Below, one piece after another: positions 54,116 to 59,880 of a stretch of DNA of 64,000 nt (the first letter of the stretch is position 1; each line of letters begins with the position of its first letter). The stretch is taken from the NCBI GenBank assembly GCA_020444325.1, contig JAHLLD010000008.1, positions 62,001 to 126,000 of the forward strand, written 5' to 3'. The notes under the pieces were generated by a model, which worked only from the letters and a program-made list of their open reading frames with translations, was not told the origin of the DNA and made no database searches. The position numbers and the translations under genes are program-made. The DNA is from a bacterium. Lineage in GTDB: Bacteria > Bacteroidota > Ignavibacteria > SZUA-365.

Positions 54116-54139
54116 CCGCTGTCCAGAGGCAACCACAAG

Positions 54140-54174
54140 ACCGGTGGTCGCGCACAACGCGGCTGCCGGTTTTC
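54140..54174 (+). terminator. Terminator after the serpin gene
   Basis: A 13-pair stem (ACCGGTGGTCGCG, 54140-54152, with CGCGGCTGCCGGT, 54158-54170; three G-U pairs), 5-base loop, then TTTC. It closes the second ECF sigma operon. Confidence 0.75.
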
Positions 54175-54179
54175 ATATT

Positions 54180-54260
54180 ATGCACATTCTGCATAATCGG
54201 CGGGCTGGGAATATGCAGTTTCTGCATAATGCAGGAGCGAATAATATGCAGTTTCTGCAT
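54180..54260 (+). repeat. Three palindromes in a 33-bp phased array
   Basis: Copies of ATGCAGTTTCTGCAT (inverted repeat ATGCAG-TTT-CTGCAT) start at 54180 (one arm base and the loop changed), 54213 and 54246: exactly 33 bases apart, each followed by AAT. They lie between the serpin terminator and a candidate promoter for the DinB-family gene. Three turns of helix put all copies on nearly the same face, as for cooperative operators or activator sites. Confidence 0.85.
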
Positions 54261-54281
54261 AATCTGCAGGAAGTTCGCAAC

Positions 54282-54361: not shown

Positions 54362-54862
54362 ATGTATCATACCCTTGAAGAGTTCCTGCAGGACTGGAGG
54401 GAAGAGAGAGCAAAAACAGAACGTATTCTTGGAGCACTCACCACCAGCAGCCTGGAGGTGCGCGTGTACCCCGAGGGTCGTACGCTCGGCTTTCTCGCCT
54501 GGCATATCGTGACCAGTCTCAGCCAGATGATGGCACATGTGGGATTGCAGCCGACTGGTGTTGACCAGGAGGATCCGCAACCCACGGCAGCCTCAGACAT
54601 ACTCGCGGGATACCAGCAGCTCTGTGACTCGTTCGACCATCAATTGCGTACATCGTGGACGGACGCTTCGCTGCAGGAGGAATGCGAGATGTTCGGGCAG
54701 ATGTGGAAAATAGTGTTTGCGCTGCAGGTACTTCTGCGGCATGAAATTCACCACCGTGCGCAGTGTACGGCCTACATGCGCCATGCAGGACTGACTGTCC
54801 CGGGCATCTACGGTCCCGCACGTGAGGAATGGAGTGCCATGGGAAGGGAGGAACAGCCCTGA
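54362..54862 (+). CDS. DinB-superfamily protein
   Basis: 166 residues, four-helix-bundle DinB/DUF664-like protein. Candidate metal-binding histidines: H in AWHIVTSL near residue 48 and the C-terminal LLRHEIHHRAQ cluster. The C-terminal block GLTVPGIYGPAREEW is shared with many DinB_2 proteins. Members are metal-dependent and include thiol transferases (bacillithiol, mycothiol type); the activity here is unknown. The gene lies directly behind the 33-bp palindrome array. Confidence 0.88.
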   Translation: MYHTLEEFLQDWREERAKTERILGALTTSSLEVRVYPEGRTLGFLAWHIVTSLSQMMAHVGLQPTGVDQEDPQPTAASDILAGYQQLCDSFDHQLRTSWTDASLQEECEMFGQMWKIVFALQVLLRHEIHHRAQCTAYMRHAGLTVPGIYGPAREEWSAMGREEQP

Positions 54863-55742: not shown

Positions 55743-57422
55743 CTACCGCGCGACGATGATGCTGCGCTGCAGCATTTGCGTGCCGTCAGTCAGCTGCAGC
55801 GCATACATGCCGCTGCGCAGGGATTGTGTTGCAATCGTCAATCGCGCAGTTGTGCCGGCATTCGCCTGGAGTTCACCACGATATACGCTGCGACCCAGCG
55901 CATCGAACAGTTCCACGCTGATGGCGGCGGAGGTACGGGCTGCCACGGCAAGCTGCAATTCCTGTGATGCCGGCTGCGGATAACTGGAGACAAGACGGAA
56001 GTTCGGTGCCGCGGAAATCCCGGTCGCATCAAGCGAGGCATCCACTTCAATTTCAAACGAACGCTGCGTTCTGCCCGCAGCGTTTTCTGCTTCGAACAGG
56101 ACGGTATGGTTACCGACCTGCTGCTGTGTGGGCGTCCACGAAATGCGTCCTGTCTGGGGATCAATGCTCATGCCATCGGGTCCCGCGTTCAGCGCAAAAA
56201 CCGGATCGGGATACGCATCGACTATCGGATCCATGGTAAACGGATCATCATACGGAATGACCTGTGCTTCGATCGGAGCGATCACCGGAGAGGTGTGTAC
56301 CTCGAGCGTGTATGTCTGCTCGTCAGTTCCCGCGGAATTTGTCGCGACGACGGTGACCGTATGCGGTCCGGCATGGAGCCGGGTCGGGGTCCAGAATATG
56401 GCACCGCGTCCACCGTCGATAAGCATGCCCTCAGGCGATTCACTCAGGGAGTATGTTGGTGCCGGTGTTCCTGTGGATGTAAGCTGATATGTATACTGTT
56501 TGCCGGCGACGGCCACGGTGACAGGTGAGGATGTGATTTCCGGTACCCCTCCGGATGCCTGCACGGTAATTTCGAACGACTGCGAATCGCTGCCGGCGGC
56601 GTTTTCCGCGATGACGGTGACAGGGTGTTTGCCTTCCTGACCGGCAGACGGTGTCCATGAAACCTTCCCACTCGTGGCATCAATCGTCATACCGGCGGGA
56701 GCAGTTTCCAGACGGTAGCTGGGGGCGGGATCTCCGAAGGCGTTGACCGTGTAACTGTAGGCAACACCGATGCGGGCCGTCGTCGGGGGAATGGTGAGAA
56801 TGGTCGGTGCATTTCCCGAAAAACAGCGGAATGGCTGACCTGAACTCGCGTGGACCATACAGGTGAGCGTATCCGTCGAGGCTGTATAACGGAAGAAGTA
56901 ATACTGTCCCTGCGGAAAATACTTGTTGGCCACCGGATTGTTTATGGTAAAGCAGAGTGCAAGCGTTGCATCCGGGTTGGACTGCAGCCAGCTCTCCGCA
57001 CCGCCATCTTTTGATCCCTGCAGCGCATCATCCGAATCCACCCAGGGCTCGGTCAGTTTCGTGCTCCCGATGCTCACGGGGAAGTATTGCGTTACCGTGT
57101 CGACGGGCAGACGCACTGCCTGAGTACCGATGATGGCCACCTTGACGCCGATGAAGAACGATGCAGAATCGAGCGTCGGGGAATAAAAACGGTACAGCCA
57201 CCCGGTGGCCTTTCCATTCGAAAGATCGAGTTCCAGCGAAACGCCCTGGTAGCTGAATCCGAAGAAGAGGGTGTTCGTCAGCACGGCGTCCGCGGCGAAG
57301 TCGCTCTGGGCTCTGCTGTGGACCGTGGGCAGAATTTCCTTGACGGTGACCTTCTCCAGAATCTGTGCCTGAACACACAGCGGGAGGAGCAGGAGCGCAA
57401 AAATTGGAAGCAGTCGTTTCAT
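55743..57422 (-). CDS. Secreted multidomain Ig-like protein with T9SS sorting domain
   Basis: 559 residues. Signal peptide MKRLLPIFALLLLPLCVQAQ; an N-terminal region of about 200 residues of unknown fold; three consecutive putative-Ig (He_PIG-like) domains, each built on PAPSYRLETAPAGMTID/GKVSWTPSAGQEGKHPVTV-type repeats (about 215-300, 305-375, 380-470); and a C-terminal type IX secretion domain starting SYPQPASQELQLAV and ending RSIIVAR. It is probably exported and attached to the surface or released. Terminal gene of two T9SS cargo genes on this strand. Confidence 0.87.
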   Translation of the reverse strand: MKRLLPIFALLLLPLCVQAQILEKVTVKEILPTVHSRAQSDFAADAVLTNTLFFGFSYQGVSLELDLSNGKATGWLYRFYSPTLDSASFFIGVKVAIIGTQAVRLPVDTVTQYFPVSIGSTKLTEPWVDSDDALQGSKDGGAESWLQSNPDATLALCFTINNPVANKYFPQGQYYFFRYTASTDTLTCMVHASSGQPFRCFSGNAPTILTIPPTTARIGVAYSYTVNAFGDPAPSYRLETAPAGMTIDATSGKVSWTPSAGQEGKHPVTVIAENAAGSDSQSFEITVQASGGVPEITSSPVTVAVAGKQYTYQLTSTGTPAPTYSLSESPEGMLIDGGRGAIFWTPTRLHAGPHTVTVVATNSAGTDEQTYTLEVHTSPVIAPIEAQVIPYDDPFTMDPIVDAYPDPVFALNAGPDGMSIDPQTGRISWTPTQQQVGNHTVLFEAENAAGRTQRSFEIEVDASLDATGISAAPNFRLVSSYPQPASQELQLAVAARTSAAISVELFDALGRSVYRGELQANAGTTARLTIATQSLRSGMYALQLTDGTQMLQRSIIVAR

Positions 57423-57519: not shown

Positions 57520-59880
57520 CTACCGCAGGTGCTGGAGCTTCAGGCTCTGTACGCTGCCTTCCGCCTCTACCACGAGGAAGTATGTTCCGCTCGCGAGCCC
57601 TGCGGTGATTGGCAGGGTTTGCAGACCGGGCTGCAGCATGCCGGCATCGAAGGTCATGACGCATTGTCCGAGTGCGTTATGAAGTGCAATGCGGGGATTG
57701 TCAAGCGGCCTGTCGCGCTGCAGTACGAACGAAAGACTGCCGCTGCGCAGTGCGGCTGCATCGATGCGCCAGCTGCCCGGATTTGCTGCGGCTTCGATGC
57801 CTGCAGTGATTTCGCCGGTGTACGGAATGGCGTAGCGTGTGTCGAGCTTCAGCGTGGTCAGACTGCGGTGTACCCCGTTGGGATAATGCACGACGACGCT
57901 GTCAATACCGACGGCATTGCCGAGCCCGAATTGCAGTTCGAGGCTGCTGGTGGCTGCACGTGATCCGGCAGAGGATGTCGAGAGTGTGCGGGTGAATGAT
58001 CGTCCGTCGGCGTAAACGACCACCCGTGTTCCGAAGGCGTCCATGGGGACATTGTCTTCCGGACTCCCCGAGAGGCGGAGCGCAAGCCAGTGACCAAGGC
58101 GAGGCAGATCATTCCTGAAAAGTTTGACTCCTTCACGCGGACTCGCCACGAGAAGATCCACATCACCGTCGCGATCAAAATCGAGGCGCGATACCGTCCA
58201 TGCGCCGTGGATCTTCGCACCGAAATGCCATGTGCGATCCAGCAGGTCATATCCGGGTGGCCCCTGGTTCATGTACAGCCGGGAGTAACGGCCGGGTTCG
58301 CCGTTTTCGCCTTCTTTCTGATATGCGTACTGGGACTGCCAGAGATCGAGATATCCGTCGCAGTCGAGGTCCGCCCATGCCACACCGGCATTCATCTCCC
58401 GGAACTTCAATCCCATTTCGTGATGCACTTCGACAAAGGAGTTGCCCTGCTCATTGTGGAAGATGAGAGACGGGTTTGATACCGAGCCGCGCCAGTCGGG
58501 ATGGCCGAGGTTGCCGACCACGAGATCCATCCAGCCGTCATTATCGAAATCGCCCCAGTCGCTTCCCATACCGTGCCCGAAATACTGTGGTGACGCGGTG
58601 GGGTTCCCGCGCGCTCCCGTGGCGGCACCGACTTCCGTAAACGTACCGTCACCGTTGTTGCGGTAGAGCAGGTCAGGTTCGAGACGATAGGTGGAAACGA
58701 AAATGTCGGTCAGTCCGTCGTTGTTGTAGTCGCAGGCGCTTGCTCCCCAGCAATCCATGTACGGAGCGGGTTCCGCGGCGGCAATGCCGCTCTGCGCGGT
58801 GACGTCGGTGAAGCTGCCGTCACCGTTGTTTCTCCAGAGCTTGTCCTGGTAATAGACCTCCTGGTTATTGACGGTCCGCCGTCCGTTCGCAATGAACAGA
58901 TCAGCGAGGCCGTCATTGTTGTAATCGAACCAGATCGGTGTGACGGTGGGAGCGGGATTGCTGATGCCAGCGGTCGCGGTGACGTCTTCGAAACCTCCTG
59001 CACCATCGGAACGGAAGAGGCGGTCGTTGTCGCCGCCGGAAACGATGTATACGTCCTGCCACCCGTCATTGTTGAAATCCGCCCAGACCGAATAGCCGTT
59101 GGGCAGTCCCAGATTCGCGGAGACGTTCGTAAAGCCGGAACCGGTATTCTGGAAATAGTTGGAGCCGATGGCGATATCGTCGCGTCCGTCATTGTTCCAG
59201 TCCGCCACCGCGGCCATCGCGGCGTTGATGCGCGCGCCATCTTTCTGCAGGCCCGACTCAATCGCGACATCGACCATCGTCGCCGCGGGGGGGTCGGCGG
59301 AGCCGTTGCCTTCGGGGAAGTCATATTCCACCAGCGCACGCACCATGTAATCATTGCTGGCAAGCAGGTATGCACCGGGTCCCCCGAGGCTGTTCGTTTG
59401 CGTGGGATCCATGAGGAAGGAGGTATAAGGCGTGAGCTGCTTGTCGGTATCGACCGCCCACCAGGGACCCGCAGGCGCCTGCAGCCAGTGTTGCACGACG
59501 ATGCGGTCGTAGCCGTCGCTCCGCAGTTCCGTACCGCGAAGATCGATGGTGATCCAGCCTTCAGACTGATAGTCCACAACCACGGGATCGATGAGTGTAT
59601 TGTAATCCCACACCCAGTGTGTCGGCGGTATGGCTCCTTCCGCCGCATCCCCGACAATGAACACCGTGTCCTTCGCCGCGCCATTCCCCATGTAATAAAT
59701 CTGAAGTTCCAGCACCCGGCAGGGCCCGTCAAAGGAGAGTATGACCGATTCGTTCATGAAAGAGGGCGCATTGAAATACGCACCGGCCGGTGTGCCGTTG
59801 TCGCGCTGAATGAGCACGGTTTGCGCGGTTGCAGGCAGCGAAATGAGACACAGGCTGAGCAGAAGGAGCAGTGTTTTCAT
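57520..59880 (-). CDS. Secreted FG-GAP/VCBS repeat protein with ASPIC/UnbV and T9SS domains
   Basis: 786 residues. Signal peptide MKTLLLLLSLCLISLPATAQ; N-terminal about 190 residues unassigned; repeated FG-GAP/VCBS blades such as DWNNDGRDDIAIG, DFNNDGWQDVYIV and DYNNDGLADLFIA with calcium-type DxDxDG loops (about 200-560), forming a beta-propeller; an ASPIC/UnbV domain (DAFGTRVVVYADG...); and a C-terminal T9SS sorting domain ending GSVQSLKLQHLR. Typical of large FCB-group surface proteins; ligand unknown. Confidence 0.88.
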   Translation of the reverse strand: MKTLLLLLSLCLISLPATAQTVLIQRDNGTPAGAYFNAPSFMNESVILSFDGPCRVLELQIYYMGNGAAKDTVFIVGDAAEGAIPPTHWVWDYNTLIDPVVVDYQSEGWITIDLRGTELRSDGYDRIVVQHWLQAPAGPWWAVDTDKQLTPYTSFLMDPTQTNSLGGPGAYLLASNDYMVRALVEYDFPEGNGSADPPAATMVDVAIESGLQKDGARINAAMAAVADWNNDGRDDIAIGSNYFQNTGSGFTNVSANLGLPNGYSVWADFNNDGWQDVYIVSGGDNDRLFRSDGAGGFEDVTATAGISNPAPTVTPIWFDYNNDGLADLFIANGRRTVNNQEVYYQDKLWRNNGDGSFTDVTAQSGIAAAEPAPYMDCWGASACDYNNDGLTDIFVSTYRLEPDLLYRNNGDGTFTEVGAATGARGNPTASPQYFGHGMGSDWGDFDNDGWMDLVVGNLGHPDWRGSVSNPSLIFHNEQGNSFVEVHHEMGLKFREMNAGVAWADLDCDGYLDLWQSQYAYQKEGENGEPGRYSRLYMNQGPPGYDLLDRTWHFGAKIHGAWTVSRLDFDRDGDVDLLVASPREGVKLFRNDLPRLGHWLALRLSGSPEDNVPMDAFGTRVVVYADGRSFTRTLSTSSAGSRAATSSLELQFGLGNAVGIDSVVVHYPNGVHRSLTTLKLDTRYAIPYTGEITAGIEAAANPGSWRIDAAALRSGSLSFVLQRDRPLDNPRIALHNALGQCVMTFDAGMLQPGLQTLPITAGLASGTYFLVVEAEGSVQSLKLQHLR

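Follow-up and report, generated by a model that had tools for sequence, protein, structure and literature searches.

A strict palindrome phased at 33 bp and repeated across the genome of one Ignavibacteria species

The DNA analyzed here, referred to as the window, is a stretch of 64,000 nucleotides from the genome of a bacterium of the class Ignavibacteria, and the element of interest is an array of three palindromes lying between a serpin gene and a DinB-family gene. These palindromes make up a single cluster among many formed by a strict, species-specific 21-bp palindrome, of which the genome carries at least 315 perfect cores. The array is neither a local operator nor an ordinary mobile repeat; rather, it is part of an unusual, species-specific, genome-wide palindrome code. 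We tentatively propose, with confidence a little short of even, that the palindromes are sites of a dimeric DNA-binding protein that would pack cooperatively every 33 bp and act chromosome-wide.

The whole unit, approximately 21 bp, is AWTATGCASWWWSTGCATAWT, and it recurs with a period of 33 bp in all three window copies. Its core is defined as TATGCA-N5-TGCATA, a perfect core as one with zero mismatches, and the control as the reversed core. The window's own genome (G000) comprises 4.65 Mb in 25 contigs, of which C8 holds the window and C1, C2, and C3 also feature below; whole-genome counts come from a pattern search, while letter-level reading covers about 2 of the 4.65 Mb. The search returned 315 perfect cores, or 68 per Mb, compared with 1 for the control, and ATGCAGNNNCTGCAT occurs 195 times versus once for its reversed control. 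By comparison, four congeners (G001 to G004) contain 0, 0, 0, and 1 perfect cores, and among 391 genomes of the class at least one match was found in 103, with 315 in G000 and a maximum of 4 in the other 390. When palindromes with 6-bp arms and gaps of 0 to 20 were ranked, TATGCA with a gap of 5 came out on top both in C8 (10 observed, 0.01 expected, about 1,167-fold) and in C1:1-400k (33 observed, 1,204-fold), and the same scan of contig C7 of congener G001 found nothing comparably overrepresented. No description of the TATGCA-N5-TGCATA motif was found in the literature searched.

The core consensus is strict. Two sets of G000 sequence underlie the finer counts, namely, a contiguous, unbiased set of 1.42 Mb consisting of C1:1-400k, C2:1-400k, C3:1-400k, and C8 only, and a larger set of 1.65 Mb that includes 20-kb stretches picked for holding arrays and is therefore partly array-chosen. 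Cores with 0, 1, 2, and 3 mismatches number 153, 21, 56, and 560 in the larger set, compared with means of 0, 1.6, 33.8, and 370 for five control palindromes, and they number 92, 20, 40, and 474 in the contiguous set. A position-weight scan was built on perfect cores only and so misses weak sites; the conclusions rest on the plain mismatch counts.

Within the contiguous set, neighboring perfect cores no more than 200 bp apart are spaced by 33 bp in 21 of 25 cases, with one case each at 32, 41, 43, and 85 bp. The partly array-chosen set gives 69 spacings of 33 bp, 3 of 32 bp, 1 of 34 bp, 3 of 38 to 39 bp, and 23 of 66 bp. An earlier note on this DNA, made from the window alone, had described one palindrome occurring at 54180, 54213, and 54246, followed each time by AAT, at an exact 33-bp period that it took to be selected since the intervening bases differ. 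Both spacings in the window are indeed 33 bp, AAT directly follows each copy, and the phasing is real, looks selected, and recurs genome-wide. The intervening bases differ as well, with a spacer identity of 0.37 within arrays (24 pairs) versus 0.32 between arrays. What needs correction is the identity of the copies: those at 54213 and 54246 are ATGCAGTTTCTGCAT, while that at 54180 is ATGCACATTCTGCAT, which is one mismatch from ATGCAGNNNCTGCAT and differs from the other two at one arm base and in the center. An origin of the arrays by unit duplication was rejected, as the spacers are unrelated. These spacers are nevertheless not free, because their central positions are 69 to 86% G+C across arrays genome-wide, compared with 56% for the whole sequence. 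The sense of the palindromes in tandem intergenic regions shows no strong preference (36 T-rich, 24 A-rich, and 1 equal). An RNA hairpin function was rejected on this ground, together with arms that are fixed rather than covarying and the absence of any Rfam match at the locus.

The location of the sites was determined with gene positions that came from a simple open reading frame (ORF) scorer rather than from published gene-finding software. The contiguous set holds 79 clusters (54 single, 16 double, and 9 triple), of which 51 are inside predicted genes, 27 are intergenic, and 1 is at an edge. Intergenic clusters are overrepresented (27 of 78; p=2.5e-9), given that a random position is intergenic in about 10% of cases, and 18 of the 25 arrays are intergenic. 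Convergent regions are enriched, holding 7 of the 27 intergenic clusters versus 7.9% of intergenic bases (p=0.004), whereas divergent regions are not (4 of 27 versus 26% of intergenic bases; p=0.13). Coding sites are read as YAETAY-type peptides (frame 0) in 25 cases and as MQKLHN-type peptides (frame 2) in 33, with frame 1 used once. The genes adjacent to arrays, named from sequence without a family search, include uvrB, prfA, glnS, gltX, lon, asnB, mdh, and many for secreted proteins, and no coherent function was seen among them.

These positions bear directly on the suggestion in the earlier note that the array is the operator of the DinB-family and alpha/beta-hydrolase genes, a suggestion we abandon. 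Many copies, with 315 perfect cores in all, are scattered outside any promoter context, most clusters fall inside predicted genes, and the enriched intergenic regions are the convergent ones. Moreover, the array is not conserved upstream of the DinB ortholog in G003, where no site with up to 3 mismatches was detected at the corresponding locus (L050), although the order serpin-DinB-hydrolase is kept there. The DinB gene was not found in the examined G001 and G004 loci.

In a gap test after PMC1626085, coding sites were aligned with the congeners, and alignments of at least 45% identity were counted while those of lower identity were excluded. Fourteen perfect-core single sites were queried, of which 9 had spanning alignments at this identity (19 alignments) and 5 had none. 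Only 1 of the 19 ortholog alignments has a gap at the site and 18 are ungapped; four further coding sites likewise show no gap. In an epimerase-like gene, for example, G003 has AVMRVLEAGTPG opposite AAMQVLHNGTPG. At three of the nine sites (C1:69904, 101843, and 277425), relatives encode near-identical residues, and these sites are informative on gap absence only. Because the tested coding copies are ungapped against their orthologs in all but this one alignment, they arose in place, by base substitution and not by insertion. This origin concerns the coding copies; intergenic arrays may have come about by insertion or by substitution. Coding arrays in MenE-, PabB-, and SprA-like proteins and two others (named from sequence) lie within variable linkers, where the two are indistinguishable.

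In the mechanism we propose, a single dedicated DNA-binding protein would recognize the palindrome as a homodimer. A dimer, once bound, would cover about 33 bp, comprising an A+T-rich core and G+C-rich edges, and neighboring dimers would line up next to each other along almost the same helix face and bind cooperatively. A dimeric, side-by-side packing protein is suggested because the site is symmetric and without strong strand preference, the period is fixed, and the footprint is flanked by G+C. The protein would act at the level of the chromosome, in structuring, segregation, or division control, as at SlmA, Noc, and MatP sites, and not as a repressor of the DinB and hydrolase genes. A chromosome-level role is most likely because the housekeeping genes that contain or flank the sites are unrelated and because the sites favor gene ends over promoters; site positions and neighboring genes likewise argue against promoter control. 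The sites would have multiplied in this lineage through base substitution, within the limits set by coding.

SlmA sites (a 12-bp palindrome in 50 copies, mainly in coding regions) and the 23 matS sites (PMC3116907), which serve nucleoid occlusion and the Ter macrodomain of Escherichia coli, respectively, provide a precedent, SlmA sites being the closest, as far as the available part of that source describes them: they too are short palindromes, dispersed over the chromosome, with a dedicated binder. Dispersal of palindromes through coding and intergenic DNA, as expected of chromosome-structuring sites, is observed in G000. The known sites differ from those of G000 in number (50 and 23 versus 315) and, as described there, in lacking fixed 33-bp arrays. 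They also have a macrodomain distribution and recur in related species, neither of which was seen for the G000 palindromes.

Several observations weigh against a chromosome-organizing protein. Known chromosome-structuring sites recur among relatives, and strictness and expansion in one species are atypical of them; the congeners (0, 0, 0, and 1 perfect cores) do not have the G000 sites in common with G000. Clusters number 31, 14, and 24 in the three 400-kb stretches and 10 in the 215-kb stretch, with no clear macrodomain pattern, and only in C2, of the four stretches, are they spaced more evenly than random (P=0.009). Coding sites more often show the A-rich orientation in the sense strand (39 versus 16); we attribute this excess to the residues encoded, but it could also reflect a strand-specific role. 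At the window locus, the serpin-DinB intergenic region of G003 falls short of its G000 counterpart by a length greater than that of the array. Finally, no binder was identified: there is no convincing candidate, and PadR and HTH-MNT proteins are absent from G000.

Among other explanations, the main rival is that the palindrome is a DNA-uptake-type sequence, like the uptake signal sequences (USS) of Pasteurellaceae or the DNA uptake sequences (DUS) of Neisseria, with copies born by mutation and kept via biased uptake and recombination until a strict consensus is reached. We regard this as unlikely but keep it as the main rival because PMC1626085, in the part available, treats strictness combined with substitution origin as the mark of uptake sequences, in contrast to regulatory sites. 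The G000 sites share with USS and DUS their gapless substitution origin and their presence in both coding and intergenic DNA (PMC1626085), and the many coding copies and the species restriction in G000 fit such a process. On the other hand, AAGTGCGGT and ACAAGCGGT, the cores of USS, span 9 bp and are nonpalindromic, whereas G000 has a palindrome of 17 to 21 bp in phased arrays; its density is no more than 68 perfect cores per Mb (315 in the 4.65-Mb genome), and a self-palindrome in fixed 33-bp arrays is not among the uptake-sequence features described in that part of the source. An improbable alternative is a dispersed mobile palindromic repeat, similar to repetitive extragenic palindromes (REP) or miniature inverted-repeat transposable elements (MITE), present at this locus by chance. 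Such a repeat would account for near-identical copies being present by the hundreds within a single species, for their enrichment in intergenic and convergent regions, and for the longer serpin-DinB gap in G000 than in G003, and other dispersed palindromic repeats of about 110 to 120 bp exist in the same genome. However, in 18 of 19 alignments the coding copies stand ungapped opposite codons of the ortholog, the unrelated spacers indicate that arrays are not duplicated units, and TATGCA clusters are not associated with those repeats (1 of 79 within 100 bp, versus 0.8 expected), the positions of the two being unrelated. Those repeats form several families with strong hairpins (e.g., with CGTCCCCACGCTCTGCGTGGGGACG ends) that are common to congeners; they occur in C1:124815-138553 (126079-126189, 127583-127700, 130810-130932, and 138435-138553) and on other contigs.

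A very large but ordinary transcription factor regulon, with the palindromes as operators of a global regulator, is quite improbable. A palindrome in phased tandem copies does resemble cooperative operators, and the same core occurs at comparable spacing in Firmicutes, upstream of HTH-MNT genes at 5 of 7 loci, and in Campylobacterota, near formate-dehydrogenase-type genes (see below). Yet 51 of 79 clusters are inside genes, intergenic clusters are enriched in convergent and not in divergent regions (4 of 27 versus 26% of intergenic bases), the adjacent genes form no coherent set, the array is not conserved upstream of the DinB ortholog of G003, and the consensus is too strict for operators (153 perfect, 21 one-mismatch, and 56 two-mismatch cores, the last versus a background of 33.8). 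Least credible, and to our minds a distant prospect, is a methylation- or repair-linked palindrome whose copies are made or kept by biased repair without binding a structural protein. The model for this is HIP1 (GCGATCGC), the highly iterated palindrome of cyanobacteria, for which alternative HIPs exist in exceptional strains (PMC4390886). Like HIP1, the G000 motif is palindromic, highly iterated genome-wide, and lineage specific. But HIP1 is 8 bp long, tied to methyltransferases, and, as described in the available part of that source, without phased arrays, while the G000 core fixes 12 bases over 17 bp, much longer than methyltransferase-type motifs, and neither methylation nor repair would explain a 33-bp array period.

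The same core is found at low copy number in other bacteria. A contig scan of 84,980 species for two cores 27 to 39 bp apart, from which records very near G000 were possibly left out, gave 28 stretches, all in metagenome-assembled genomes (MAGs): 18 from Rhodothermales, 7 from Firmicutes, and 3 from Campylobacterota (Campylobacterales). Pairs are 31 bp apart in Rhodothermales, with up to four cores in a row, 32 to 34 bp apart in Firmicutes, and 33 to 36 bp apart in Campylobacterota. The core matches that of G000 and the phasing (31 to 36 bp) is similar, while perfect cores number 2 to 26 per genome versus 315; five Rhodothermales genomes have 26, 11, 26, 11, and 15, and ten others have 2 to 5. 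These low-copy pairs look like operators. At five of the seven Firmicutes loci (L056, L059, L066, L070, and L071), sites 32 to 33 bp apart lie just upstream of a gene for an HTH-MNT protein (by Pfam, all 5 have Polbeta and 4 of the 5 have HTH_3), an arrangement that looks like an autoregulated toxin-antitoxin operator; at L066, a HEPN-like ORF, recognized by eye, follows the HTH-MNT gene. The Campylobacterota pairs (L072, L079, and L054) are beside formate-dehydrogenase-type genes (fdhD-like, cytochrome-b-like, and ferredoxin-like, by eye), which suggests an operator there as well. The core shared between these pairs and G000 may be convergent. Congener G004 has a few composite arrays (Table 1), in which the palindromes either flank a TATGCA half-site at a spacing of 51 bp or are spaced by 31 bp, possibly an ancestral low-copy form. 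Viral contigs provided 21 stretches with TATGCA-N5-TGCATA pairs; in L257 to L264 and L268 to L275, several of which are alike, the pairs are mostly 35 bp apart, several of them near a terminase-like gene (by eye). No regulator candidate was seen in the 21 viral stretches.

Several candidate binders were considered and rejected. AphA, a PadR family protein of Vibrio cholerae, prefers ATGCAA-N4-TTGCAT according to the available part of PMC6855506, a site that closely resembles the G000 core but has its half-sites spaced wider by one base. PadR proteins (PF03551) were therefore sought, and they were detected in 0 of 7 genomes (G000 and six others), while controls were detected in 14 of 14 cases. 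For an HTH-MNT binder, G000 yielded three weak matches, two of them to the polymerase-beta part only and one to an HTH at E=0.87. A BlaI/MecI-type regulator gene (L172; named from sequence) has a triple array upstream, along with a separate TTACTA-type palindrome nearer its start; as an autoregulated binder it was set aside, the sole match near other arrays having E=0.97. No shared regulator was seen among the neighbors of arrays in G000 versus Rhodothermales or G004, the neighbors in common being mostly one widespread C-terminal domain and a few G004 pairs. The observation in the earlier note that the arms do not look like the LexA box of Bacillus subtilis or E. coli extends to the two LexA motifs reported for Bacteroidetes in the available part of PMC8565304, GGA-N5-TCC and CTAA-N5-TTAG: the core fits neither. 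In addition, the downstream gene belongs to the DinB family PF05163 and is not the polymerase of that name.

At the locus itself, the array begins 64 bp past the stop codon of the serpin gene (PF00079) and ends roughly 100 bp ahead of the DinB-family gene, which is followed by the alpha/beta-hydrolase gene (Table 1). The earlier note had placed the array between a terminator and a candidate promoter. The upstream hairpin does fold and is probably the terminator of the serpin gene, although the terminator scan called none at the locus, this hairpin included; the sole sequence resembling a promoter, which agrees at 9 of 12 positions, overlaps palindrome 1. Farther along the window, on the minus strand, 55743-57422 and 57520-59880 encode two large secreted-type proteins whose C termini look, by eye, like sorting domains of the kind used in type IX secretion, and a C-terminal sorting-type domain is common to many array-adjacent genes of G000.

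Table 1. Features of the array locus in the window and composite arrays of congener G004
Feature	Position	Strand	Remarks
Palindrome 1, ATTATGCACATTCTGCATAAT	54177-54197	no strand	perfect core at 54179-54195
Palindrome 2, AATATGCAGTTTCTGCATAAT	54210-54230	no strand	perfect core
Palindrome 3, AATATGCAGTTTCTGCATAAT	54243-54263	no strand	perfect core
Spacer between palindromes 1 and 2	54198-54209	no strand	12 bp
Spacer between palindromes 2 and 3	54231-54242	no strand	12 bp
Strong 16-bp RNA hairpin directly upstream of array	54137-54173	+	from folding
DinB-family gene (PF05163), downstream of array	54362-54862	+	G003 ortholog without array
G004 composite arrays	L187 9107-9200; L188 1290-1360; L189 6838-6905		

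Until now, a strict consensus reached without copying has been a puzzle special to uptake sequences, as far as the available part of the literature describes them; here, it comes together with a self-palindrome and 33-bp phasing. It is possible, though we hold it with some doubt, that the palindrome constitutes a new chromosomal signal, which in-place substitution carried to hundreds of positions, some inside conserved protein genes, and which was recruited from a low-copy operator type of Rhodothermales and other bacteria. Such a signal would be the footprint of a packing, chromosome-organizing protein or a self-propagating motif driven by uptake or recombination. With at least 315 sites setting this species apart from its congeners, it is directly testable whether point mutation can assemble a genome-wide binding code at the expense of altered proteins. 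If the binder is found, it would define a new chromosome-scale DNA-binding system or, alternatively, a palindromic uptake-type sequence of a kind for which no report was found in the literature searched.
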